Source of the DNA: Archaeoglobus profundus DSM 5631
GTDB taxonomy: Archaea > Halobacteriota > Archaeoglobi > Archaeoglobales > Archaeoglobaceae
Assembly: GCF_000025285.1 (NCBI RefSeq)
Contig: NC_013741.1
Span: forward strand, 1,364,001-1,428,000
Direction of reading: 5' to 3'
Length of the DNA stretch: 64,000 nt
Shown: positions 1,329-12,700 of the stretch, one piece after another
Layout of the letters: each line of letters begins with the position of its first letter
Position numbering within the stretch: the stretch's first letter is position 1
The notes under the pieces: model-generated
Told to the model about the DNA's origin: nothing
Seen by the model: only the letters and a program-made list of their open reading frames with translations
The model's database searches: none
Position numbers and translations under genes: made by a program

Positions 1329-1952
1329 ATGGGAGTCTTTGAACTCGTAGTGTTGATGATGAACTATGTTGGAGTATTTGCATTTGCTGTGAGCGGTGCG
1401 CTTAAGGGAATTGACAAGGATATGGATATATTCGGTTGTGCCTTTCTGGGTCTTGCTACAGCTTTTGGAGGAGGAGTTATAAGAGACATAATCGCAGGCA
1501 ACGTCCCTCCTTTGGCATTCAGAAGCGAACCCGATTTTATCGTAGCAATCGTAGCTATAACAGTTACTATCTGTATGTATAGAAGGGTTTCTAATGTTAT
1601 TGGACTTTTACCTTACTTTGATGCCGTAGGTTTGGGAGCTTTTGCTGCGCTTGGAGGTACCGTAGCCTTGAATGCGGGACTTGGGCCGCTCGGTGTTATG
1701 TTTGCTTCTATGTTTACAGGTGCAGGTGGCGGTATAATTAGGGATGTTCTCGCTGGAGAAATTCCCCTAATCTTTACAAGGGAATTCTACGCAACCGCTG
1801 CTCTGATTGGTGGTGCTAGCCTCTACATCTTGAGTTCATTTGTCTCTCTTGAAGTGGCCATGTTCATATCAGCATTGATCACAACGATTCTTAGAATTGC
1901 ATCCATCAAATTCGGATGGAATTTGCCCAAAGTTAAGAATAGCGTTATATGA
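1329..1952 (+). CDS. TRIC-type (UPF0126) membrane channel protein
   Basis: The protein of about 207 residues has seven predicted membrane helices built as two repeats, each with the family's glycine-rich kinked motif: GGGVIRDIIAGNVPP and GGGIIRDVLAGEIPL. Prokaryotic TRIC proteins are trimeric cation channels of the cytoplasmic membrane. I chose the ATG at 1329, about 8 bases after a GAGGGTG ribosome-binding site, rather than the in-frame GTG at 1320. The last codons lie in a stretch similar to the viral sequence on the other side of Element 1 (see findings), so the C-terminus may have been altered by integration events. Confidence 0.8.
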   Translation: MGVFELVVLMMNYVGVFAFAVSGALKGIDKDMDIFGCAFLGLATAFGGGVIRDIIAGNVPPLAFRSEPDFIVAIVAITVTICMYRRVSNVIGLLPYFDAVGLGAFAALGGTVALNAGLGPLGVMFASMFTGAGGGIIRDVLAGEIPLIFTREFYATAALIGGASLYILSSFVSLEVAMFISALITTILRIASIKFGWNLPKVKNSVI

Positions 1953-1965
1953 AGCAGGAATAGAG

Positions 1966-2009
1966 ATACGCCCGGGCCGGGATTTGAACCCGGGTCGCGG
2001 GCTCGACAG
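1966..2009. repeat. attL of Element 1 (direct repeat of tRNA-Asp 3' part)
   Basis: These 44 bases are identical to 11950-11993. They comprise the acceptor 3' strand, T arm, variable loop and part of the anticodon arm of tRNA-Asp on the minus strand, without the 5' half. A further 26 or so bases to the left (from about 1940) also match the right copy with a few mismatches. Confidence 0.95.
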
Positions 2010-2811
2010 TGCGTTGATCGATTACAGGAGAGTAAAGAAGGAATTCATCAAATACTTGGAACAGAAGAAGCTTCACCCGGATACTGCTCAAAGGTATATC
2101 CACTACTTGGACAAATATCTCACAAAGCCGATTAGATCACAGGAGGATATCTTCGAGATAATGAACTCCTGTGAAAGGGGATACAATTGGCTCGCGAGAA
2201 GCATTCGAAACCTCCTCAATTTCTACGTTGAAGTCAAAGGATTAGATGAGGGAGTTGCGGAGAAGCTCAAGAAGGCTTGCAAGATGAAACCGACAGGTGT
2301 CAGAGCTATCTTCATCTCGGATGATGAGATTGTTGAGGCATGGGAAAATCATGTGATCAACCAACCCGAAGATATACGCATCCTCTTTAAGCTTCTAATT
2401 TACTCAGGAGTCAGGGCATCACATGCCGTTCCTCTCCTTAACACTTTCGACAGAGCGCAACTGATAGAGATTGAGGAGAAGGGTATTGCGAGATATCCCA
2501 TCCTTGAATTTAGCAAGGGGCAGAAGAGAGGATATTTCGCCTACATGCCTTTAGAGTTTGCGAGGGAAGAATTAAGACGGGTAAAAATCTCCTACCGCGA
2601 TTACACCGAAAGAGCAAGATACAAAAGAGTTTCAGCAAACACAATCAGAAAATGGCATTACAACTTTATGATTGAGAACGATGTTCCTGAGAGTGTTGCA
2701 GATTTCATTCAAGGACGTAAACCTGCAAGTGTTGGAGCGATGCACTACTTAGCGGTTGCACGTCAGGCAGATAGGCTTTACTCCCAGCTTGTGAACAGAT
2801 TCCCTGTCTAA
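1966..2811 (+). CDS. int: SSV-type integrase, C-terminal part int(C), separated by integration
   Basis: The frame runs through the tRNA-derived repeat (translated as RPGRDLNPG) into a tyrosine recombinase. LLIYSGVRASHA carries the first catalytic Arg, WHYNFM and FIQGRKP lie in the later catalytic region, and the Tyr in VGAMHYLAVARQ is the likely nucleophile. The frame stays open upstream to 1897, but that part is host flank. Joined at the repeat to the fragment at 11788-11993 it gives one 335-residue integrase, so the gene is probably intact only in the circle. It is clearly homologous to the integrase at 53066, including IARY, YMP and RKW blocks. In the integrated state it probably lacks a proper start and is silent. 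Confidence 0.9.
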   Translation: MRPGRDLNPGRGLDSALIDYRRVKKEFIKYLEQKKLHPDTAQRYIHYLDKYLTKPIRSQEDIFEIMNSCERGYNWLARSIRNLLNFYVEVKGLDEGVAEKLKKACKMKPTGVRAIFISDDEIVEAWENHVINQPEDIRILFKLLIYSGVRASHAVPLLNTFDRAQLIEIEEKGIARYPILEFSKGQKRGYFAYMPLEFAREELRRVKISYRDYTERARYKRVSANTIRKWHYNFMIENDVPESVADFIQGRKPASVGAMHYLAVARQADRLYSQLVNRFPV

Positions 2812-2913
2812 TTTAATTTTTAGAGAAAAGAGAGGAAAATCAAGCCTTCCGTTCAAGTGGAATTTCTATGCAACAATCAAAAGAATTTTTAATTATGATA
2901 GCATAACTTATTG

Positions 2914-3375
2914 ATGACCGATCACCTTAAAAGAGAATCCTATAGAATTGGCATTTTCGTGGAAATTTATAGGGAGTTAAGCGATAGGTATTATTGGGTT
3001 AAGTATGATTTATTGACTTCTCAACTGGAGAGAGGGCTATACATCTCAACTATGACTGATAATGGTCTCCCAATGGTAAAGATGGCTTTTAGGAACATCT
3101 TAGATAAAGATGAAATGTACAATATCTGGGACTTGTTTAGATCCTATCTTAAGAGACACTTGTATGAACTTATGAGAAAGGGGAGAGTATCTAAGAAACA
3201 AGTTTATAGGTTATTAAATAAAACTCCACCACTATCGGAGACAATAGGCAGATTTGAAGTTCGTGTTGAGGACTCATTTGGATATGTATATGGGCTATCT
3301 CTTGATGAGGCAAAGGAGTTGGGAGAAAAACTAGAGCAATTATTAGAGAACGCTTTAGTGTTAAAAGGAAGGTAA
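2914..3375 (+). CDS. Hypothetical protein of Element 1
   Basis: The product of about 153 residues is charged, soluble and of no family I recognise. It is predicted to be mixed alpha/beta, with a helical middle (residues 60-105, rich in Lys/Arg) and an acidic C-terminal helix. The ATG at 2914 follows an AT-rich TTTTTAATTATG stretch by about 25 bases, which suggests a leaderless transcript; a TTG three bases earlier is the alternative start. It stands alone between the integrase and a convergent two-gene unit. Confidence 0.6.
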   Translation: MTDHLKRESYRIGIFVEIYRELSDRYYWVKYDLLTSQLERGLYISTMTDNGLPMVKMAFRNILDKDEMYNIWDLFRSYLKRHLYELMRKGRVSKKQVYRLLNKTPPLSETIGRFEVRVEDSFGYVYGLSLDEAKELGEKLEQLLENALVLKGR

Positions 3376-3434
3376 AAATAATATTAACTTTGTCTTGACA
3401 ATTAACTCTTCAACAATTGTTGGATGAAAAGAAG

Positions 3435-3662
3435 TTAGTAAGCTCTAATATTTCGAATAATGCCAAATCGACCTCCAATGTCTACTATGGGTGAGGGGAT
3501 CCCCACTGTGGTTATATTTTCACACCTGTAGTATTGACAGTTCTCAAGCAAAATTCCTATTGGTTTGGGGATGTGATCGTCTATGCGTTTTACCCTAAAG
3601 GGAATTTCCTTATCGACTTTTCTTACGGTTGGCTTTATTTTTCGCTTTATTCTCTCGAACAT
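3435..3662 (-). CDS. Hypothetical basic protein of Element 1
   Basis: The product is 75 residues with a Lys/Arg-rich N-terminal half (FERIKRKIKPTVRKVDKE) and two Cys in CQYYRC. The ATG at 3662 lies two bases after the stop of the upstream membrane-protein gene, which argues for translational coupling; a longer frame back to a TTG at 3719 would overlap that gene in another frame. No family is recognised. Confidence 0.55.
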   Translation of the reverse strand: MFERIKRKIKPTVRKVDKEIPFRVKRIDDHIPKPIGILLENCQYYRCENITTVGIPSPIVDIGGRFGIIRNIRAY

Positions 3663-3663
3663 A

Positions 3664-3945
3664 TTAATTCCCTCTAACTTGTCTGATAATGTTCTCCCTA
3701 CCACCTTCGGCTCTGACAATTTCGTCGAAACGAGAGCTACCTTCTACATCTTCAACTAAAGTTCTCTCTGAATCAATGAGACGGACTACTACTTTTGGTT
3801 CGGACTTATGCTTAAGATTAATACCTCTAGAGTCGATAGCAGCCTCAATCTGGCTAGGTCGCCTCTTTTGGAGGAACATATGGATTATTACTGCTACAAC
3901 AATTATTCCTACAACCCCCAATATATCATATTCCGACATCATCAT
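3664..3945 (-). CDS. Single-pass membrane protein of Element 1
   Basis: The 93-residue product has one N-terminal membrane helix (about residues 8-25, ILGVVGIIVVAVIIHMFL) followed by a charged soluble tail. Three Met codons in a row make the exact start uncertain by six bases. It forms a two-gene minus-strand unit with the basic protein downstream. Small one-helix proteins are common in archaeal membrane-associated viruses, but no homologue is recognised. Confidence 0.6.
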   Translation of the reverse strand: MMMSEYDILGVVGIIVVAVIIHMFLQKRRPSQIEAAIDSRGINLKHKSEPKVVVRLIDSERTLVEDVEGSSRFDEIVRAEGGRENIIRQVRGN

Positions 3946-4244
3946 ATAAAGTGGCTTCCAACGTATATATAGGCCTTATCAAAAAGAAAATCGAAATGGC
4001 TTTAGCCAATCTTAATTCATCAACACGAAAAAAGTATTACCAACCGCTAAAACAGTATCAACTCAAAGGGTATTGGAATAGGGGTAGGTTCAAAATTTTG
4101 AACGAGACGAATTTTACATGAAGGGTGAATAAAAATGATCGTGATCGATTTAGCAATGGTTAAATACTCCCAATATCGACAAGTATCATAGAAGAGATTA
4201 AATAAATATAAAAACATTTTTATAATTTTATACTCGACATAAGA

Positions 4245-4252
4245 TTTATAAG
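4245..4252 (+). promoter_or_regulatory. TATA box of the Element 1 capsid-like operon
   Basis: TTTATAAG is the best TATA-like sequence in the otherwise gene-free stretch 3946-4303. Transcription would begin near 4275-4280, giving a short leader. The rest of that stretch is AT-rich; the only open frame I see is an 18-codon ATG frame at 4135, which I do not regard as a gene. Confidence 0.5.
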
Positions 4253-4271
4253 CTTTGGAGTTGACCTGCTT

Positions 4272-4287
4272 GAGGAGGTAGCTCCTC
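4272..4287 (+). promoter_or_regulatory. Hairpin upstream of the capsid-like gene
   Basis: GAGGAG, loop GTAG, CTCCTC form a perfect six-base-pair stem with a four-base loop just ahead of the shared GTTAGC leader. It includes an anti-Shine-Dalgarno-like strand (CTCCTC), so it could be an operator or could sequester ribosome-binding sequence. Function is inferred. Confidence 0.4.
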
Positions 4288-4291
4288 CCTC

Positions 4292-4310
4292 GTTAGCAAG
4301 GGGGTGAGAA
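4292..4310 (+). promoter_or_regulatory. 19-nt leader/RBS block shared with Element 2
   Basis: GTTAGCAAGGGGGTGAGAA is identical to 54987-55005 in front of the homologous gene of Element 2, while the DNA just upstream differs. It contains the ribosome-binding run GGGGGTGA. If this run is the true binding site, translation would start at GTG 4316 rather than GTG 4304, which matches the start of the Element 2 protein. Confidence 0.7.
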
Positions 4311-4576
4311 AGGAGGTGTTGAGTAAGATCGTAGGATTCGGGAGGAAGATCGTCAACACTTACAGGATGCTCAAGGACATGAGAGGAGAGCTCACTTTCA
4401 TCGATTGGATCAAGGGAGTCATTGTCCTTGCGATCTTGGGAGTTGGAGTTGCAATTCCGATTGTAGTTCAGACAATTCAGAGTGTCAATGTGAGCGATGC
4501 AACAACTCAGCTGATCTTAGGATTCATCCCAGCAATCACCGCTGTTGCGATACTGCTTGGATTCTTAGGTAGGTGA
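4304..4576 (+). CDS. VP1-like major capsid-type protein (spindle-shaped virus type)
   Basis: The protein is up to 90 residues, with a short basic N-terminus and two membrane helices (about residues 36-55 and 68-88) ending LLGFLGR. Its last 59 residues match the Element 2 protein at 55012 in 46 positions by hand count. Two hydrophobic helices joined by a short polar turn (QSVNVSDATTQ) is the pattern of the VP1 capsid proteins of fuselloviruses and PAV1-like viruses, so I infer a virion role. GTG 4304 is the longest start; GTG 4316 fits the ribosome-binding site better. It is the first gene of a rightward run of four. Confidence 0.75.
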   Translation: MRKEVLSKIVGFGRKIVNTYRMLKDMRGELTFIDWIKGVIVLAILGVGVAIPIVVQTIQSVNVSDATTQLILGFIPAITAVAILLGFLGR

Positions 4577-4603
4577 AGCTTTAATCCTCTCTATTTTTTA
4601 GCC

Positions 4604-4846
4604 ATGATCACAGATAGAAGAGGACAGTTCACGGTTGCGGGATTGTTTGCGTTGATGATCATGTTAATTGTAGCTGTCAAATTCCTTCCCATCATTTACG
4701 ATTATTGTGAAGAGGGAGCGCAACTTGCAGAATCAAGGGGAGACATGCTGAGCAGTTTCTTATGGAGGTTGATCCCTGTCAGCATCGTAATAGCCATATT
4801 GACATGCATCTATCACTATGCGAAACCGCTCATCCTTAGGGATTGA
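4604..4846 (+). CDS. Prepilin-like small membrane protein, conserved in both elements
   Basis: The 80-residue product begins with RRGQFTVAGLF followed by a hydrophobic stretch, the pattern of archaeal class III (prepilin) signals where cleavage falls between G and Q. A second hydrophobic segment lies at about residues 53-68. Fifty-seven of 80 positions are identical to the protein at 61910 in Element 2, including the central EEGAQLAES block. It follows the VP1-like gene by 27 bases. A membrane or virion-surface role is inferred; processing by a prepilin peptidase is a prediction. Confidence 0.75.
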   Translation: MITDRRGQFTVAGLFALMIMLIVAVKFLPIIYDYCEEGAQLAESRGDMLSSFLWRLIPVSIVIAILTCIYHYAKPLILRD

Positions 4847-4848
4847 AG

Positions 4849-5022
4849 ATGTATATCGTTGATAACGGAATTGTTAAGTTCAAGCGCAAATTGGTTAAGA
4901 CGAAGAGAGGGAATAGTAAAATCTGCTTGATTTACCTCCCGAGATTCATCGAGAAGTATGGGGATGAAGTTCTCGTTGAAGTTGACACGATAAACAAGAT
5001 CATAACGGTGAGATTCAAATGA
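4849..5022 (+). CDS. AbrB-like small DNA-binding protein (first of tandem pair)
   Basis: This 57-residue frame starts two bases after the upstream stop. KLVKTKRGNSKICLIYLP followed by GDEVLVEVD is the strand-strand-turn pattern of swapped-hairpin AbrB/MazE domains. It is close to the minus-strand protein at 54662 of Element 2, sharing RKLVK, NSK, IEKYG and EVLVEVDTINK. Its stop overlaps the start of its paralogue (ATGA). A role as element-encoded transcription factor is inferred. Confidence 0.7.
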   Translation: MYIVDNGIVKFKRKLVKTKRGNSKICLIYLPRFIEKYGDEVLVEVDTINKIITVRFK

Positions 5023-5213
5023 GAACTCCCTTATTCATCGATAAGGACGGGATGTTGAGATTTGAAAAGAAGCTTATCAAGAGATCGGATGGGAGTGGTT
5101 ATCTCATCAACCTTCCAAAATTCATCGGGAGTTTCGGGAAGGTTGCGATCATTGAAGTTGATATTAAAAACAAAACGATAATAATCAAATTCGAAAATAA
5201 TAATAAAGATTGA
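5019..5213 (+). CDS. AbrB-like small DNA-binding protein (second of tandem pair)
   Basis: This 64-residue paralogue of the gene just upstream keeps the pattern KKLIKRSDGSGYLINLP, then FGKVAIIEVD, and ends in an Asn-rich tail. It starts inside the stop codon of the first copy, so the two are surely co-translated and could form heterodimers, since AbrB folds are obligate dimers. Element 2 has only one such stand-alone gene. Confidence 0.7.
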   Translation: MRTPLFIDKDGMLRFEKKLIKRSDGSGYLINLPKFIGSFGKVAIIEVDIKNKTIIIKFENNNKD

Positions 5214-5382
5214 ATTAAAAAAGAATAAACCCTTCAAGAACCAACTTCTCCGAGACGTCGACTCACATAATAACTAAACTAAAAGGAGAAAATATATGCT
5301 CATAAGCACAGCAGACACTTAATAAATATAGGTAGGAAAAATATACAGCGTTTCCGCGTAATGAATTCGTTGGTGACGTTCT

Positions 5383-5889
5383 TTATCCCTCAGCTTTCAG
5401 GTAGCGGTGTATGGTCTCGAGACTCCTACCTGTTACTTTTGCAATATCACGGTAAGTGAATCCCTGTTCCTTGAGAATCTTCATGATGTTCTTCTCAACA
5501 TCGCTAACCTCTCTCCCATCTTTGAAGAAATAGGTGAAGATCCTTGCAATCTTCAAGCGTAAGTCTTTATCTTCCTGATCGATCTTAGCCAAAAACGATT
5601 TGACCACACTTTCAATCGTGTAAGCCGTTAAGATTCTCCCGACGTTCAAACCGACTGCATAACCTTGCCAATAGACAAATTCGAGTAAATCCTTAAGTTC
5701 ATCGGGTAAATCAACTTTCCGAACTTTACCCTTCCAACCCATTTCTTTAGCAATCTTTTCGGCAACCTCTTTCCTAAGATCGCTCTCATCTTCAAGAGTC
5801 GTTATCAAATCGATGAACTCTGGTGAGTTGATTACTTCACTTAAGCTGTCCTTCTCTACCAACACCTTAACCAATTCCTCAACACTCAT
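5383..5889 (-). CDS. Helix-turn-helix protein of Element 1
   Basis: The product is about 168 residues, mostly helical and acidic. Its C-terminus reads KEQGFTYRDIAKVTGRSLETIHRYLK, a clear helix-turn-helix with recognition helix GRSLETIHRYL. The start at 5889 follows a strong GGAGGGGATGA binding site; the frame is open back to 5937. It is the last of a leftward run from the PrimPol gene and could be its copy-number or transcription regulator. One exact GGTAGCG iteron unit lies within its 3' end at 5400-5406. Confidence 0.65.
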   Translation of the reverse strand: MSVEELVKVLVEKDSLSEVINSPEFIDLITTLEDESDLRKEVAEKIAKEMGWKGKVRKVDLPDELKDLLEFVYWQGYAVGLNVGRILTAYTIESVVKSFLAKIDQEDKDLRLKIARIFTYFFKDGREVSDVEKNIMKILKEQGFTYRDIAKVTGRSLETIHRYLKAEG

Positions 5890-5949
5890 TCTCATCCCCT
5901 CCAAAACAAACACAGCCATATACATACCTCTATACAATTATATACAGGA

Positions 5950-6141
5950 TCACCGAATCAACCTGTTCTCCTTTTTCGCAACTCTTCTTATGCAAACGGG
6001 AATGTTGCCAACCCATTTGAAGTATTTGCACCTGCCAAACTCTCCTTTTCCGCAAACAAACTCGCACAAGTATTGATCGACAATCTCACCGATTCCTGAT
6101 TGTTCGATCATTTTGATGGGATCAAACCTCACCGCCTTCAT
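5950..6141 (-). CDS. Small cysteine-containing protein, possible zinc binder
   Basis: The 63-residue product has four cysteines (CEFVC, GRCKYF, VCIRR) that could coordinate zinc or an iron-sulfur cluster. No family is recognised. It lies between the HTH gene and the ASCH-like gene in the leftward run. Confidence 0.55.
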   Translation of the reverse strand: MKAVRFDPIKMIEQSGIGEIVDQYLCEFVCGKGEFGRCKYFKWVGNIPVCIRRVAKKENRLIR

Positions 6142-6152
6142 TCTCTCTCACC

Positions 6153-6512
6153 TCAAACAGTATGCTTAAGCAACTCCTTAGCGCTCTCAAAACCGCATAA
6201 TGGATCAGTCTTGAGTTTTTCAGTCAGTTTGAGGAGAACAATGTAGCGAGGAAGTTTTCCTCCGTTCAAATCTCTTGCTCTCTTCTCCCATTCCTCCAAG
6301 CTTTCAAACCCTGAATATTTCCATAAGAGCTTTCTGAACACTTTCAAGTTTTCAAAGACTGCCACGATCTTCGCTTTGGCAAACACGATGTTTCTGCTAT
6401 CTCTAATCACGATTTCCCTTCCAATCAAATCGTGATACTTGCCATTCCTCATTGTTGCAACTACTCCCTTTCCCATCAGCTGGGAAATTGCCCGCAGACT
6501 TCTAAACCGCAT
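6153..6512 (-). CDS. ASCH/PUA-like domain protein
   Basis: The product is about 119 residues. The order is a basic N-terminus, then GREIVIRDSRNIVFAKAKIV, then a helix with GFESLEEWEKRARDLNGG and the strand RYIVLLKLTE, which matches the beta-barrel layout of ASCH domains (RNA-binding or RNA-modifying folds often found in mobile elements). The ATG at 6512 follows GAGGTGGTAAG; the frame continues to 6527. The assignment is by pattern only. Confidence 0.55.
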   Translation of the reverse strand: MRFRSLRAISQLMGKGVVATMRNGKYHDLIGREIVIRDSRNIVFAKAKIVAVFENLKVFRKLLWKYSGFESLEEWEKRARDLNGGKLPRYIVLLKLTEKLKTDPLCGFESAKELLKHTV

Positions 6513-6513
6513 C

Positions 6514-6942
6514 TTACCACCTCTCAAAACTCCTTTTCATGGAAGGAGCATGATAAACAAAATTCTTCAATAGGAAACGTCTCAGCTCTCTGTAATCACC
6601 CACAAAAACAGGTTCTTCCCGTTCAAAGTTGTAGTAATGTAATCTTGGGAATCTGATGTTCAAAGGAACGTCATAAACTGTAACTTCCTCCTCGACATCG
6701 TCAACAAACAGGAGTAGAAGTGGTGTGTTTAAGGCGGTTGCCACTCTCTTAAGGGTTATAAGCTGATAAATACTGCAGAAGTGCCGGGAAGTATGTTTCT
6801 CCTCTGCAACTAACCTTATACTGTTTCCAACTTCAAGAACGTAATCGATGTTTGTGATGACAATTCCATCATCAGTTTGAACTCCATTCAACGCTTTATG
6901 GAGGGAATTTTCAAGAAATTGTCCACAATACGGGCATCTCAT
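6514..6942 (-). CDS. Zinc-finger protein with possible PD-(D/E)XK nuclease fold
   Basis: The 142-residue product opens with MRCPYCGQ, a zinc knuckle. It then has ITNIDYVLEVGNSIRLVAEEKH, compatible with the D...(D/E)xK core of PD-(D/E)XK nucleases, followed by a helix and the strand LLLLFVDDVEEE. The start codon overlaps the PrimPol stop (ATGA), so it is co-expressed with the replication protein. Nuclease activity is a guess from the motif; the catalytic set would be D33, E48 and K49. Confidence 0.5.
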   Translation of the reverse strand: MRCPYCGQFLENSLHKALNGVQTDDGIVITNIDYVLEVGNSIRLVAEEKHTSRHFCSIYQLITLKRVATALNTPLLLLFVDDVEEEVTVYDVPLNIRFPRLHYYNFEREEPVFVGDYRELRRFLLKNFVYHAPSMKRSFERW

Positions 6943-9900
6943 GGCGAATCGACCTCTTTAACTTCCCCTTCATCAATTCCAATATCAAACTCAGAATCAA
7001 TCTCAAATTCCTCCTCGCTATTCGAATCGACAGGAATGAGAAATCCCTTGACTTCTGGGTGAAGAGATTCATAATCACTTAGAGGAATTTCGAGAACTTG
7101 ACCTGTATCCGCCTTGTATTCCCGTCCATTCACTATGATGTGGACATAGTCAATTGCCCTAACTTTGATAGTCTCTTCAACATCTAACACAGCTTTCGGA
7201 AGTTTTCCACTCTCAACAAGATACTCAACTCTCTCCCTTACTGCTTGAACTGATCCAAACTCCTTCCTAACAGCTTTGATGAATGCTGATGGTAAGAGAT
7301 CGGATGGAACAGACTTCTTGAAGTCGTTGTATATTTGTAATATCTTGTTATCAATATCAGAATATTCTTCGTCCTTTGTCGTATCTTGGTTTACAGATTC
7401 CCGTAAACTTTGATCGTCATCAGTCGAATCTTTTTTCACACTTTTATCTTGCTCTTCATCCTGTTCTTCATGTTCTTTACCTTCGTGTCCTTCCTCGTTG
7501 TCTTCTTTAGCATCCTCTTTGGTAACAGATTCAACAAACTCATTCCAAGCATCTTCTTCCTTCTTCCTTAATCCCATTGCACTCTCAACGCTGAAATCTG
7601 AAACATCTGTGTCATCGCTATTGTCTTGGTCATCTTTCGGATTATCGGGAGATTCACTTTCGGAGTTTGATCTATCCTCATAGTCTCCGCTCAGGAATCT
7701 TACAAACCCCGAGAATGAAACCTTAATTGACTTACAGTTCCTACCGTTAACCCTGTGAACTCCATACTTCCAGCCAAATCTCTCAGCTAATGATTTGAGA
7801 GAGTCAATTCCTGTATCTTTCAAAATCCTCATGACTGCGCTTGTTATTACTACATCCTCTCCTCTCAGAAATGCCCATGGGACAAACCCTTCCTGTAACA
7901 ACGCTTTTAGTCTCCTTTCTAAGGTCGTGCTTGTGTAGAGGTCATTTTGATTTTCGCCGACTATTTCGATGCGCGATATGTAACGCGCATACAAGTTGTT
8001 GATACTCTCGAGCAATCTTGCCCTGATCTCCTCGTTTATCGTCTCATTAACCTCCTCCTCAGTTTCACCTTCATAGAATTCATTCACCCACTCTGGAACA
8101 TCTAACTCTGCAAACTCGAAAGCTTCTCTAAGTAGCTCGGTAGCTAAGACTTGCCAAGCTTCCTTTAGTCTCTCAGGATTCTCTGAGATTTTTTTGAAGA
8201 TAAAACTACCTAAAAACCTTAGATCTCCAAGTCTCGGGAGAACTTCCTCTGTGAACTTCTCTATTTCATGTTGAGGAATTTCATCTGACAGAGAGAAATG
8301 GATTCCAAAAAACCGTTTTCTTACAGCACCTGTGCCGTCCAATGGTAGTTGTCCGTTCATGGTCATAAAGAATGGCGCTAACGAAGGAAACTCTATATAG
8401 ACACCGTGGGAGTGCTTTCCTCTTACGAAACGATTCTCGACAGCGCTTTTGTATTCCTCTAATAATTCCTTATTGTTAAATATCCCCTCAACCTCATTAA
8501 CAACAACAGGGAAGGTCGTCAAGCTTCTTAATCTTCCATGCTTTGCCTTTGTATCAGCATCACCGCTTCCCCTGACAATCCTTCCCTCTTCGGGAGGATT
8601 CCAAATAGACAAAATTATCTGAGCTCCAATAGTCGTCTTTCCTGTATTTCGTGCTCCATAAGCTACTAAATCTGGGAAATGAACCGCTATTGTCCCTCTA
8701 ATCTGCTTGATTGCGTAGGCAAACGGTGCAATTAATCCCCATTTGATCATTGTCGTGAATCTTTTTCCCGCTTTGCTATACCACTTAGTTCTAAGTTCAT
8801 CTAAGAGCTTGAGAGCTTTAGCCAAATCTTCTTTGGAGAATTCTTCAGGTTGCCATTTTACTGCCTTGATTTGTCCGTTGATGTAATAGAATCCCGGCTT
8901 TTCAAGCTCTCTTCTTATTTCCGCTTTTCCCTTCCTGATGAATGCTGAAATTATGGATGAGAGCGCATCCCTAAGTAATCTGGAATGTTTCACAACGCCC
9001 TCTGATTGCAGTCTCGAAATTACAACATCAAGCTCAGCCGGTCCTATTGTTAGGTTCCTAAATCCATGGAATTCGATTTCAAACTTAGTAAGTCCTCCAA
9101 GAGGATCTTCATAAACAACAACCTTGACAGGACAAATCTCCGCCACTATCTTCTCGTAAACGATTCCTCCGCTCTTATCTTCAAACGCTCTTGCAATAAT
9201 CCCTCTCTTCGGGTTTGCCACATAGTAAGCTTTCTTCCTAAAGTCGATCAAGGAGAAGATCGAATCTTTGAAAGGAGAAGATTTGCCAAGTATTTCTTCA
9301 AGATTTCTGATCAAATCTAAAGCTCTTTCCTCTCCTAACAATGTTTCTGCTATTTCTTGTAATCCTGCTTTGCCCTTGAGTTCCTCCTCAGTTGGAGGAT
9401 TGCCTCTCAATCCGTAGGTCCTATCCAAGACATAAAGCCTAAGATTTAGTTCCTCATCTTTCTCTGCTAAGAGTTCAACGATCTTTCGAGCGGAATTGTA
9501 GCTTACCCCTGCTTTTTTAAGCCATCCCGTTAGAGAGAAGACGACTAAATCGCGATAACCGACCTTGTAAATCGGTCTGAGGATATTAACGATCTCAACG
9601 ATCTTGCTCTCCTCTAATTCCCTTCCTTCCCCATCTTTAACCTCAACTCTTGGAATAGTCCTCTTTTTACCCTCTAAAAAGCTGAGAAGTGTTTGATATT
9701 CCTCCCAAGTTAATTCAGCGATCTCTTCCGGCTTGTGAACAAATCTGTAAACCTTTCCCGAGGGATGCGGAGATGGAGGAGCAACAACGTATCCTCCATT
9801 AGCCCGTATATCAACTCCCGGTCGGATACCAATCCTATTAGTGAATTTGTTGGGATCAGGATTCTTCACCTTGAGATAGTAGTGGAACCCCTTCCCTGTC

Positions 9901-10262
9901 TCGACAATCCATGTATCTAAGATCTTGCCGTAGAGATCAGGATGCTTGTCCGCTAATTCTGCTAATACTTCACTCATAACCTCTCTTGAATCAAAGTCGA
10001 CAACCGTTAAATTGCCCGAAATTTCACCTGTAACAATAGCTAAACCAAGTTTGTTCCCCTTCCTTAGAGCTGGAAAATCGGGATGTTTAAACCACTTTTC
10101 AAGCTCTTCTAAAGTTGGACGTCTCTGCTGGAACTCTTTCCATTCTACTGCCGAGATTTTGTTGCCTTTCGGATTATTCTCCGAGGGAGGAACAATTATG
10201 ACAGGGATAACGCTGAATCCTTGCTCTAAATAGTGTTTTGCCCACTCAAATAAGTCTGCCAT
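6939..10262 (-). CDS. PrimPol-helicase replication protein
   Basis: This 1,107-residue protein begins with a primase-polymerase domain (about residues 1-200) with catalytic D89-F-D91, H127 in GFHYYLKV and D151 in GVDIRANGGYVVAPPS. A helicase domain follows with Walker A GARNTGKT (536-543), Walker B VVVNEVE near 590, sensor FFMTMN and an arginine-finger-like AVRKRFF. Residues about 840-1000 are an acidic Ser/Asp/Glu-rich linker before a final folded part. The architecture is that of pRN1 ORF904-type replicases, which prime and unwind archaeal plasmids. A strong AGGGAGGTG site precedes the ATG. It is far larger than any other gene in Element 1. Confidence 0.9.
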   Translation of the reverse strand: MADLFEWAKHYLEQGFSVIPVIIVPPSENNPKGNKISAVEWKEFQQRRPTLEELEKWFKHPDFPALRKGNKLGLAIVTGEISGNLTVVDFDSREVMSEVLAELADKHPDLYGKILDTWIVETGKGFHYYLKVKNPDPNKFTNRIGIRPGVDIRANGGYVVAPPSPHPSGKVYRFVHKPEEIAELTWEEYQTLLSFLEGKKRTIPRVEVKDGEGRELEESKIVEIVNILRPIYKVGYRDLVVFSLTGWLKKAGVSYNSARKIVELLAEKDEELNLRLYVLDRTYGLRGNPPTEEELKGKAGLQEIAETLLGEERALDLIRNLEEILGKSSPFKDSIFSLIDFRKKAYYVANPKRGIIARAFEDKSGGIVYEKIVAEICPVKVVVYEDPLGGLTKFEIEFHGFRNLTIGPAELDVVISRLQSEGVVKHSRLLRDALSSIISAFIRKGKAEIRRELEKPGFYYINGQIKAVKWQPEEFSKEDLAKALKLLDELRTKWYSKAGKRFTTMIKWGLIAPFAYAIKQIRGTIAVHFPDLVAYGARNTGKTTIGAQIILSIWNPPEEGRIVRGSGDADTKAKHGRLRSLTTFPVVVNEVEGIFNNKELLEEYKSAVENRFVRGKHSHGVYIEFPSLAPFFMTMNGQLPLDGTGAVRKRFFGIHFSLSDEIPQHEIEKFTEEVLPRLGDLRFLGSFIFKKISENPERLKEAWQVLATELLREAFEFAELDVPEWVNEFYEGETEEEVNETINEEIRARLLESINNLYARYISRIEIVGENQNDLYTSTTLERRLKALLQEGFVPWAFLRGEDVVITSAVMRILKDTGIDSLKSLAERFGWKYGVHRVNGRNCKSIKVSFSGFVRFLSGDYEDRSNSESESPDNPKDDQDNSDDTDVSDFSVESAMGLRKKEEDAWNEFVESVTKEDAKEDNEEGHEGKEHEEQDEEQDKSVKKDSTDDDQSLRESVNQDTTKDEEYSDIDNKILQIYNDFKKSVPSDLLPSAFIKAVRKEFGSVQAVRERVEYLVESGKLPKAVLDVEETIKVRAIDYVHIIVNGREYKADTGQVLEIPLSDYESLHPEVKGFLIPVDSNSEEEFEIDSEFDIGIDEGEVKEVDSP

Positions 10263-10371
10263 ACTTCAACACCTCCCTAAGTAGGCATTTTTGTGTGAGA
10301 AAATCGCCACAAACTGAGGAGTCTGTATAACAGGAGTGTGGCAAATCCGAAAGCTTTATGACCTTGAACAT
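10246..10371 (-). CDS. Possible small cysteine-rich protein upstream of PrimPol
   Basis: A 41-codon frame (52 if begun at 10404) contains three cysteines in HSCYTDSSVCGDFLTQKC and ends 17 bases inside the PrimPol gene, which would couple the two. It fills the otherwise empty gap between the copG-like gene and PrimPol. There is no homologue I recognise; it could be chance. Confidence 0.35.
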   Translation of the reverse strand: MFKVIKLSDLPHSCYTDSSVCGDFLTQKCLLREVLKYGRLI

Positions 10372-10428
10372 CCTTTCTTTTCTAAGAGGAAGACACCCAA
10401 GCATTGGACAACACCTTTTTATTTTTCT

Positions 10429-10578
10429 CTAAGAATCTTTACAAGAAACACTCTTACTTTCAAGAGCTTCCGCGATGATTCTTCTTAGGACTGCTGAACG
10501 CGGATTTCTCTCTTTTTGTGCTATTTCGTCAATCCTCTTCAGTAAATCATCTGGAAGTCTCAACCCGACATATCCCAT
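10429..10578 (-). CDS. CopG/ribbon-helix-helix regulator
   Basis: The 49-residue product has the pattern MGYVGLRLPDDLLKRIDEIA followed by RSAVLRRIIAEAL, a classic ribbon-helix-helix fold. CopG proteins of this size repress plasmid replication genes; pRN-type plasmids carry one next to the PrimPol gene, as here. A GGGTGATG site precedes the ATG, and a TATA-like CTTTTAAACTT lies upstream in the shared divergent region 10579-10685. Confidence 0.8.
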   Translation of the reverse strand: MGYVGLRLPDDLLKRIDEIAQKERNPRSAVLRRIIAEALESKSVSCKDS

Positions 10579-10653
10579 ATGCCATCACCCAATGTTTTCA
10601 CTTGTGTTTAATTGTGTTGCTTTAAGTTTAAAAGGTTTTCGTTGAAAAAGAAA

Positions 10654-10663
10654 GTTTTAAATT
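10654..10663 (+). promoter_or_regulatory. TATA box for the rightward regulator gene
   Basis: GTTTTAAATT lies about 26-30 bases upstream of ATG 10686, supporting a leaderless transcript. The region 10579-10685 is the divergent promoter between the CopG-like gene and the putative winged-helix gene and is very AT-rich. Confidence 0.45.
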
Positions 10664-10685
10664 GTTTTAACTGTAAAATGTGGAT

Positions 10686-11381
10686 ATGGTCAGAGAAGCT
10701 GTCGAAAGACTAATTCAATTAATAGAAGAGGAAAAGATAGATTTTAGCGAATTTGAAGTTCTCCTAAGTGCAGAGGAAAAAACAATACTTAATGTCCTAA
10801 AGAGAAAGAAAAGAGCGATGAATATCAATGAAATTAGAAATACGATAATTGACGACTTCATCAAATTAATCAAATATTATGGACAGATAAAAGAATTAGA
10901 AGATAAGATTAGATCGTATAGCGAAGAAAGGAAACCTATCTACCCATTGCAACGAATATCGGAAAAAAAATACTCAAATCGCCTTAATCTAAAGTTTAAT
11001 ATTGACAAATCTTTTAACATAAAAGTTATAGATATTTCCTCCTTAGAGAATGAGCTTAACAATCTTAAGAGAAACAAACCACGAATGGAGTTTTGGGAAG
11101 GTGAGTTTGAAGACATACCTGAGCTGTTTATCAAAGTATATGAAGAACTTAAGCAGAGAAAGATATTGAAAAATGGGAAAATCCTTGAGAGGGATAAAAG
11201 AGTTGTTGCCGAATTAATCAACAAACACGGTATCGCAAGAATCCCATCTTACAAAACAATAGAGCGAATACTAACTGAGCTTGAGGCTGGAGGTCTTGTT
11301 GTGTCTCGACCAGATAGTGGTGGTAGAGGTAAAAAATTATACGCTATTAATCCTAAGCTATTGAAGAAATTAGAGGAATAA
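10686..11381 (+). CDS. Putative winged-helix regulator with coiled-coil middle
   Basis: The product is about 231 residues. The N-terminal part (FEVLLSAEEKTILNVLKRKKRAMNINEI, interrupted here) looks like a degenerate HTH, the middle is charged and helical, and the C-terminal part (about 165-231) has a winged-helix pattern: VVAELINKHGIARIPSYKTI, LTELEAGGLVV, then the wing SGGRGKKLYAI. It is transcribed away from the copG-like gene towards the iterons. A role in replication or partition control is inferred from position. Confidence 0.6.
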   Translation: MVREAVERLIQLIEEEKIDFSEFEVLLSAEEKTILNVLKRKKRAMNINEIRNTIIDDFIKLIKYYGQIKELEDKIRSYSEERKPIYPLQRISEKKYSNRLNLKFNIDKSFNIKVIDISSLENELNNLKRNKPRMEFWEGEFEDIPELFIKVYEELKQRKILKNGKILERDKRVVAELINKHGIARIPSYKTIERILTELEAGGLVVSRPDSGGRGKKLYAINPKLLKKLEE

Positions 11382-11400
11382 TCGAATGTTACTGTTCTTC

Positions 11401-11648
11401 CGCTACCTGCATAAAAAATATGTCAGGTAGCGCCTATCATGAATAACTAAAGGAGAGTTCTCCTCCCTTCTTTAGCCGAAAGCGAATTTTATAAGGGTAT
11501 CATATACTGCTACCGCGCTACCTCACTTATACACAAAACCCATACTTTGAATCCATAAAGTGAAAGTCAGGGTAGCGCAGGTAGCGCGGTAGCGGGTAGC
11601 AACTCAAGGTAAACCCAAAGTCGAGGTAGCGCGGGTAGCGAGGTAGCA
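11401..11648. repeat. GGTAGCG iteron cluster, candidate replication origin
   Basis: Eight exact copies of GGTAGCG or its complement lie at 11401, 11426, 11516, 11571, 11580, 11588, 11625 and 11634 (first base), and three GGTAGCA variants at 11508, 11595 and 11642. The first two form a perfect inverted repeat (CGCTACCTG / CAGGTAGCG). Several copies are spaced 8-9 bases start to start. The rest of 11382-11748 has no convincing gene. Such clusters bind replication initiators or repressors; an origin role is inferred from the intergenic position in an element that carries its own replicase. Confidence 0.75.
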
Positions 11649-11787
11649 GTTATAAACTAATATGTTATGTATAAAAGAATTGTAAAAAAGAAAAAGATTA
11701 TTCCTCTCTCTTAGCGGGAGGGATTTTCAACCCTACTGCCAACTACCTTTGGAAAACCTTATTTTATTCCCATATGATTATCCATGT

Positions 11788-12003
11788 ATGCCCCGCAAAC
11801 CTTCAGGTAGGATCGATGTATGTTTGCGCATTAAAGCCGATCTATATCAGCGTTTGAAGGAAATAGCCAGAGCTAAGGGCTGTTCTATTGCTGATCTCGT
11901 TGAACCAAAGCTTATTGAGCTTGTAGCGTTATATGAGGCAGGGATTGAAATACGCCCGGGCCGGGATTTGAACCCGGGTCGCGGGCTCGACAGGCCCGCA
12001 TGA
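11788..12003 (+). CDS. int: SSV-type integrase, N-terminal part int(N)
   Basis: The frame starts at the ATG of MPRKPSGRIDVCL and encodes an RHH-like N-terminal domain (LRIKADLYQRLKEIARAKG). It then enters the att repeat (RPGRDLNPG) and stops at 12003 in tRNA DNA. At the repeat it is in the same codon phase as the left-hand fragment, so excision restores a 335-codon gene from 11788-11993 plus 2010-2811. The frame is open to 11749 but that would lengthen the protein by only 13 residues. Integration therefore disrupts the gene, as in SSV1. Confidence 0.88.
   Translation: MPRKPSGRIDVCLRIKADLYQRLKEIARAKGCSIADLVEPKLIELVALYEAGIEIRPGRDLNPGRGLDRPA
11950..11993. repeat. attR of Element 1
   Basis: These 44 bases are identical to 1966-2009 and overlap the 3' part of the intact tRNA-Asp. 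The crossover lies somewhere within this stretch and its exact point cannot be read from the sequence. Confidence 0.95.
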
Positions 12004-12027
12004 TGGGCCGGGCTACACCACCCGGGC
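11953..12027 (-). tRNA. tRNA-Asp (anticodon GTC), integration target
   Basis: On the minus strand the acceptor GCCCGGG pairs with CCCGGGC, with discriminator G. The anticodon stem ends GCCCG after loop CTGTCGA, giving anticodon GTC. The T arm is CCGGG-TTCAAAT-CCCGG. The gene is complete because Element 1 supplies an identical 3' part. Confidence 0.96.
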
Positions 12028-12050
12028 TTGATCGCATTAGGTTTGTGAGG

Positions 12051-12060
12051 TTTTTAAAAC
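12051..12060 (-). promoter_or_regulatory. TATA box for tRNA-Asp
   Basis: Read on the minus strand GTTTTAAAAA lies about 25-30 bases upstream of the tRNA 5' end, the expected archaeal position. It remains outside the element, so integration leaves tRNA expression intact. Confidence 0.5.
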
Positions 12061-12112
12061 TTTTGCAACTCATTAGAAAGAGTTAAATAAATTGGTTTGA
12101 GCTTTGCGAACG

Positions 12113-12700
12113 ATGTTCAAGTGCGTTCAGTACAGCTGGGACGATGTCTACAAGCTTTGTAAGGAGCTTGCAAGGAAGATCAAGAATTCAGGATTTAAAC
12201 CAGATGCTATAGTGGCCGTTGCAAGGGGAGGATGGGTTCCTGCGAGAATTTTGGCGGACTTTTTGCTGATCAGGGAGCTATACAGTGTTAAGGCCGAGCA
12301 CTGGGGAATAGTTGCAACCGTAACTGGTAAAGCTAGGATAACGCAGCCACTCATGGTTGACCTGACTGGAAAGAGCGTCTTAGTTGTAGATGATGTTGCA
12401 GACACAGGTGAGACTGTGGAGATAGTTGCCCAGCATGTGAGGGAGAAGAATGCAAAAGAAGTCAGAACTGCAGTAATAGACTTCAAACACACATCCAAAT
12501 TTGTCCCGGATTACTATGCGAGAGAGATGGAAAAGTGGGCATGGATTGTCTATCCTTGGAGTATCTACGAGGATGTTAAGGATCTGATAGTGAAGCTTAA
12601 TGAGGGTGGAAATGCGGAAGAAATTGCCAGAAAGTTGGAGGAGAAATTCAACCTGAAGGTGGATCCTTCAGTCGTTGAAGAAGTTTTGAAGGATTGCTGA
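12113..12700 (+). CDS. Purine-type phosphoribosyltransferase
   Basis: The product is about 195 residues with the PRPP-binding signature VLVVDDVADTGET near residue 90 and the N-terminal AVARGGWVPARIL hood segment of xanthine-guanine/hypoxanthine phosphoribosyltransferases. It would salvage a purine base with PRPP. The next gene, an adenine deaminase homologue, makes hypoxanthine, so the pair forms a purine salvage unit. A TTAAATAAATT element about 28 bases before ATG 12113 suggests leaderless transcription; the TTG at 12104 is less likely. The precise base cannot be told from sequence. Confidence 0.82.
   Translation: MFKCVQYSWDDVYKLCKELARKIKNSGFKPDAIVAVARGGWVPARILADFLLIRELYSVKAEHWGIVATVTGKARITQPLMVDLTGKSVLVVDDVADTGETVEIVAQHVREKNAKEVRTAVIDFKHTSKFVPDYYAREMEKWAWIVYPWSIYEDVKDLIVKLNEGGNAEEIARKLEEKFNLKVDPSVVEEVLKDC

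Follow-up and report, generated by a model that had tools for sequence, protein, structure and literature searches.

The origins of archaeal plasmids that replicate with a PrimPol (primase-polymerase) protein are poorly known. In the Sulfolobus plasmid pRN1, replication starts from a stem-loop of 100 nt that immediately follows the 3' end of rep, the gene of its replication protein (Rep), and a search for iterons by its authors was negative (PMC4234260). In staphylococci, the C-terminal domains of Rep from Staphylococcus aureus pathogenicity islands (SaPI) and of Cch2 from the staphylococcal cassette chromosome mec (SCCmec) bind iterons, and replication is thought to start in this way (PMC7581432). 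For plasmids of the pT26-2 type, a published survey states that no conserved origin consensus was seen, and its accessible part does not report a shared origin architecture (PMC6972569). Here, we describe an iteron array in a 64,000-nt stretch of the chromosome of Archaeoglobus profundus DSM 5631 (NC_013741.1, positions 1,364,001–1,428,000), which we call the window. The array belongs to an integrated element of about 10 kb at tRNA-Asp (window positions 1940–11993). We consider it very probable that the array is the replication origin of this integrated plasmid and is read by the wing of the plasmid's own PrimPol-helicase.

The array occupies positions 11401–11648, where eight exact copies of GGTAGCG/CGCTACC and three one-base variants lie within 248 bp. 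The variants are all GGTAGCA (11508–11514 on the minus strand, 11595–11601 and 11642–11648 on the plus strand). These numbers had been given in an earlier note, made from the letters of the window alone, and a recount confirmed them, as well as the perfect 9-bp inverted repeat that it had described at the left. The spacing of 8–9 bases that it assigned to the right cluster is true of most steps (9, 8, 9, 8) but not of two others, since the full series is 9, 8, 7, then 30, then 9 and 8 bp. The area contains no gene, as the note had said; it is a non-coding stretch (11382–11748) between the open reading frame (ORF) of a putative regulator at 10680–11381 and int(N). The genome-wide count of the 7-mer that the note had proposed gave 121 copies in 1.56 Mb (1,563,423 bp in two contigs), with a density that is not equal across the chromosome. 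By chance, 248 bp should contain about 0.02 exact copies, while 8 are observed (Poisson P about 3 × 10−19), and the array is about 450-fold denser in the 7-mer than the genome on average. Furthermore, when the element was shuffled 200 times with its dinucleotides preserved, no 7-mer reached more than 4 copies per 250 bp, compared with the 8 observed. A further copy pointed out by the note, at 5400–5406, is the only one in the rest of the element, where 0.7 are expected; it is thus at chance level and was dropped. Several short direct repeats with near-constant steps in the non-coding DNA of a replicon are what an iteron origin consists of, and all of this is found here. The A/T-rich region that should lie beside them is recognizable on composition only (85% A+T in 40 bp). 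A sequence within the array resembling a transcription factor B recognition element and TATA box, TTTAGCCGAAAGCGAATTTTATAA (11459–11494), occurs in near-identical form at two other chromosomal sites (L002 1501–1536 and L003 1501–1532), which have further flanking sequence in common with each other.

The PrimPol has relatives in 18 of the 59 Archaeoglobi genomes examined and in one contig of a metagenome-assembled genome (L051), while IMG/VR yielded no close relatives. Iteron clusters are present in 12 further Archaeoglobi elements (L031, L032, L033, L034, L035, L036, L037, L038, L041, L042, L051, and G020). The position of the cluster was judged for the closer relatives with flanking sequence, and the array is present in every one of them, past the gene divergent from PrimPol and before int. 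The order of its parts is inverted site or sites, spacer, direct block, short gap, a second direct block (usually 3 + 3 sites), and usually an A/T-rich tract. The direct sites follow one another at steps of 8–9 bp across the Archaeoglobi arrays. In 11 of 13 elements, block II is followed by an A/T tract that reaches the 91st percentile of local A+T or more. The gap that separates the divergent cores measures 48–53 bp in 16 of the 17 arrays compared in elements of Archaeoglobi and Thermococcales, with L051 (60 bp) as the exception. This gap extends beyond the closer relatives, to pT26-2 (52 bp), pGE2 (50 and 51 bp), pTI1 (52 bp), and an element of genome G025 (53 bp), and the divergent cores of Methanobacterium virus Drs3 are 50 bp apart. 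Each of these arrays is near a Rep of the superfamily 3 (SF3) helicase type. The pT26-2 array lies between t26-20 and t26-21, which matches an origin that others had predicted from GC skew (PMC6972569).

The array is located 3' of rep in Drs3, vir080, and pORA1. Clusters just 3' of Rep but without the 48–53 bp gap are found in pORA1 (81 bp), vir080 (59 bp), and HAV2. Short-repeat clusters beside a Rep gene that lack this gap are at L179 2771–2956 (HAV2), L181 7961–8187 (vir080), and L167 556–817 (pIT3); the pIT3 repeats were considered as a case of the same layout and rejected as a plain tandem array. In L034, a HicB/HicA-like pair (12010–12467) is inserted between the iteron array and the integrase gene. 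In L031 (genome G016, contig C8), a related element of 8,724 bp is present as a tandem dimer, and the integrase gene between the two copies is intact, which is consistent with a circular form.

The letters of the core differ among these elements. On the strand that carries the direct blocks, seven cores are found over 13 elements (the window element and its 12 relatives): GGTAGCG (window and L031), TGTTACC (L032), TGCTACC (L033 and L038), CGGAACA (L034 and L035), GGTAACC (L036 and L042), GGACACA (L037 and L041), and TGTAACC (L051 and G020). Most cores fit N-G-N-N-R-C-N, those of pT26-2, L163, and pTI1 in part only. The 'inverted' core letters of L032, L033, and L038 vanish once all arrays are read on this strand. 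The core is tracked by one stretch of PrimPol, about 20 residues that follow the helix LAERFGW. Thus, RNCKSI occurs with GGTAGCG, KTPWA with CGGAACA, QG(K/R)RI with (G/T)GTAACC, RVV(R/K)(G/A)I with TG(T/C)TACC, and RFSKGV with GGACACA. The correlation of core distance with the distance in this stretch, the wing described below, is r = 0.60 (Mantel test, P = 0.0008, n = 9) and is still 0.60 with the rest of PrimPol partialled out, while other PrimPol regions give values from −0.10 to 0.20. A scan of 865 PrimPol segments peaks at aa 829–842 (corrected P = 0.017). The PrimPols of L031 and L032 are 94% identical over aa 1–760 and 40% identical in the wing, and their cores differ at 4 of 7 letters. 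Those of the window and L031 are 83% identical over aa 1–760 and 90% identical in the wing, and their cores differ at 0 of 7 letters. Because the repeat letters change together with a short PrimPol stretch, comparison of the sequences makes the element's own PrimPol the likely reader of the iterons. The ribbon-helix-helix (RHH) protein, the winged helix-turn-helix (wHTH) protein, the Cys-rich ORF, and the integrase were also considered as readers and rejected, since they do not track the cores.

In the AlphaFold prediction, aa 765–870 of PrimPol form a winged helix (predicted local distance difference test score of the core, 84–93), and the strands of the wing, aa 832–838 and 841–849, are the covarying stretch. 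An earlier 403-aa AlphaFold model was poor outside the C-terminal domain. The best Foldseek match of the predicted fold is TcpK bound to oriT DNA (E 0.0095, probability 0.99). TcpK reads the 9-nt tandem repeats of the pCW3 oriT via a β-wing (PMC6137059), which speaks for the PrimPol wing as reader, but the match is weak and the likeness is a lead only.

The PrimPol of genome G020 has a wing, WRYDVFKLKKKPIRGIQV, that resembles the wing of L032, and a core like TG?TACC is therefore expected. A pattern search limited to TGNNACC pairs showed TGTAACC repeats on G020 contig C86, in the same gene module. C86 ends at the end of an insertion sequence, and the target duplication, CTAACGGC, also opens C116, the contig with PrimPol. 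Since the expected class guided the choice of the search pattern, this prediction lends modest support to the pairing of wing and core. With G020 added, the correlation of wing and core is r = 0.51 (P = 0.0015). The insertion sequence of G020 (ends GTGGACAGGTC, target duplication CTAACGGC) splits PrimPol near the start codon (L194 10085–10180 and L039 1–100).

Several results weigh against a PrimPol-read origin. For G008, whose KTPWA wing predicts CGGAACA, no array was found in the 54%-complete genome. The covariation comes from 9–10 related elements with both wing and array, a small sample of kin, and the wing was first chosen by eye, with the corrected scan coming later. Nearest-wing matching fails for L037, and for L032 and L033 with a longer definition of the wing. 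The matches of the predicted fold are weak, the best having E 0.0095. VIA-align gave no confident fold match (all Z below 4), and the comparison with SaPI Rep reached only a weak Z of 3.2 (8tch_A). Specific binding by pRN1 Rep was not seen by its authors (PMC4234260). The GC skew minimum of the window element is at 10601, outside the array, as it is in L031 and pT26-2, while in pGE2 it is inside. However, the skew tracks gene orientation, and it was therefore left out as evidence.

We suggest the following mechanism for the circular form of the plasmid. The PrimPol-helicase would dock on the 7-bp core with the β-wing of its C-terminal winged helix, and its subunits would align on the direct blocks, at steps of 8–9 bp, and on the inverted sites across the 48-bp spacer. 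The helicase would open the neighboring A/T-rich tract, after which the first primers would be made by the PrimPol domain. Given that wing and iterons change together, each plasmid would keep a private origin. We also think it rather likely, with less assurance than for the origin reading of the window array, that one replicator architecture (divergent iterons 48–53 bp apart, direct blocks, and an A/T tract) is common to plasmids and viruses of several archaeal lineages and is read via a hypervariable β-wing. The wing and iteron would then be a diversifying, possibly decodable pair that sets plasmid incompatibility.

Could the array instead be an operator? The iterons would then be bound by the divergent wHTH regulator or by the RHH (CopG-like) protein, which would switch the integrase or the replicase. 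Both regulator genes adjoin the array, there is a TATA-like element at 11487–11494, and core distance is weakly correlated with the distance between wHTH sequences (r = 0.28, P = 0.047, n = 8). However, core and layout agree between the window and L031, although their wHTH proteins are 8% identical and their RHH proteins 22%. Conversely, L033 and L037 have the RHH strand IQLNVT in common and a near-identical wHTH recognition helix (SDPVLAKH), yet their cores are different. Furthermore, the array is 3' of the wHTH gene and about 0.8–1 kb from the promoters of PrimPol, RHH, and wHTH, and the HicB/HicA pair of L034 separates it from int. An operator is thus unlikely. The earlier note had left the choice between an origin and the operator of a replication repressor; the comparison across relatives favors the first, because the layout is kept while the neighboring regulator, RHH protein, integrase, and downstream genes differ, and it speaks against the second, as the cores do not track the RHH or wHTH regulators.

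Iteron arrays beside small RHH genes are typical of centromere-like partition sites, and the RHH ORF at 10429–10578 is near the array. Nevertheless, we give little credence to a partition site bound by the RHH protein: no ParA-like gene was recognized in the element, the cores do not follow the RHH proteins (r = 0.16, P = 0.19), and in L042 the place of RHH is taken by an AbrB-like protein. Arm-type sites for the N-terminal domain of the integrase would suit an array that closely precedes int(N), with its RHH-like N-terminus, but they are highly improbable, since the int(N) of the window and L032 are 77% identical although 4 of their 7 core letters are different, L041 and L042 have near-identical int(N) and different cores, the window and L031 have the same core with int(C) only 46% identical, and the array is present in pTI1 and Drs3 without a nearby integrase gene of the Sulfolobus spindle-shaped virus (SSV) type.

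The features of the array and of the element that carries it are collected in Table 1.

Table 1. Coordinates of the iteron array and of the surrounding element in the window.
Feature	Position	Strand	Remarks
Attachment site (att) copy, left	1940–2009		70 bp, 94% identical to 11924–11993
int(C), catalytic part of integrase	2010–2811	+	PF16795
PrimPol-helicase, predicted replication initiator	6939–10262	−	1107 aa; PF09250 at N-terminus
C-terminal winged-helix domain of PrimPol, aa 765–870, predicted origin-binding domain	7653–7970	−	AlphaFold
β-wing of PrimPol winged helix, aa 832–849, KYGVHRVNGRNCKSIKVS	7716–7769	−	Only PrimPol part whose variation tracks iterons
Cys-rich 52-aa ORF overlapping PrimPol start	10246–10404	−	Kept in most close relatives
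RHH (CopG-like) ORF upstream of PrimPol	10429–10578	−	Does not track iterons
Divergent regulator, C-terminal wHTH-like stretch	10680–11381	+	Other wHTH proteins here in relatives
Outer divergent pair, perfect 9-bp inverted repeat, CGCTACCTG / CAGGTAGCG	11401–11409 / 11424–11432		14 bp between arms; also in L031
Two inverted core sites, GGTAGCA and GGTAGCG	11508–11522	−	8-bp step
Spacer, inverted to direct sites	11523–11570		48 bp, 67% A+T; TTATAC...AAACCC as in relatives
Direct iteron block I, 3 GGTAGCG + 1 GGTAGCA	11571–11601	+	
Direct iteron block II, 2 GGTAGCG + 1 GGTAGCA	11625–11648	+	
A/T-rich tract directly 3' of block II, candidate unwinding element	11649–11720		85% A+T in first 40 bp
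int(N), N-terminal part of split SSV-type integrase	11788–11993	+	RHH-like (Arc-like) domain
att copy, right	11924–11993		Overlaps tRNA-Asp, 11953–12027 (−)

The element is of the SSV (suicidal integrase) type, flanked by att copies, with an integrase gene that integration into the tRNA gene has split into int(N) and int(C). Its PrimPol is an ORF904-like replication protein of the kind found in the pRN1 family; the match to PF09250 has E 1.2 × 10−30, and the only meaningful PDB matches are structures of ORF904. The helicase region is homologous to known plasmid Reps, for example, pORA1 aa 2–857. A helicase domain together with a predicted C-terminal winged helix gives the initiator the composition of the self-loading helicases of SaPI and SCC. 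Within the left att copy but outside its tRNA part, positions 1940–1967 contain codons that resemble int(N) (LYEAGIEI), as though a related element had integrated before at the same tRNA-Asp. A tandem pair of small hydrophobic proteins is encoded at 4304–4576 and 4604–4846. For the second, a match to His1_capsid falls short of the threshold (E 0.018), and part of the element could therefore be of spindle-virus-like origin.

If the array is an origin of the kind proposed, the origins of archaeal PrimPol plasmids could be found from sequence by their architecture, and the residues that read them can be named. L031 and L032 would be a natural pair for studying the evolution of initiator specificity and plasmid compatibility, and the results could guide vectors for Archaeoglobus and Thermococcus.

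How does this locus compare with the known systems? pRN1 has the same type of Rep (ORF904, a PrimPol-SF3 helicase), which likewise has a winged helix at its C-terminus and a small RHH/CopG gene upstream of it (PMC4234260, PMC3869888). In contrast to the pRN1 origin, the window array is iteron-based and placed away from the 3' end of rep, where the overlap of the PrimPol stop with the following ORF (6939 versus 6942) leaves no place for a pRN1-type stem-loop. SaPI5 Rep is a fusion of primase and helicase, as here (PMC7581432), whereas the window element differs from SaPI and SCCmec in its archaeal host, its PrimPol primase, and the 48–53 bp between divergent cores. Furthermore, the SaPI and SCC origins are directly downstream of rep, while the array lies on the far side of the divergent gene, about 1 kb 5' of rep. 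The Thermococcales plasmids pT26-2 and pGE2 have iterons with divergent gaps of 50–52 bp beside a Rep of the t26-22p type, as here, although that Rep is without a recognizable PrimPol domain. The α protein of phage P4, as PMC4234260 describes it, is a primase-helicase whose winged helix binds origin repeats, similar to our proposal; its primase is of the bacterial TOPRIM type, unlike PrimPol. TcpK places a winged helix on 9-nt tandem repeats via the β-wing (PMC6137059), as we propose for PrimPol, but it is a conjugation accessory protein without a helicase, unlike the PrimPol-helicase. Thus, this kind of origin is known from SaPI, SCC, and P4, and the proposed archaeal version is new, since the relative that has been studied, pRN1, uses a stem-loop whose place is absent in the window.
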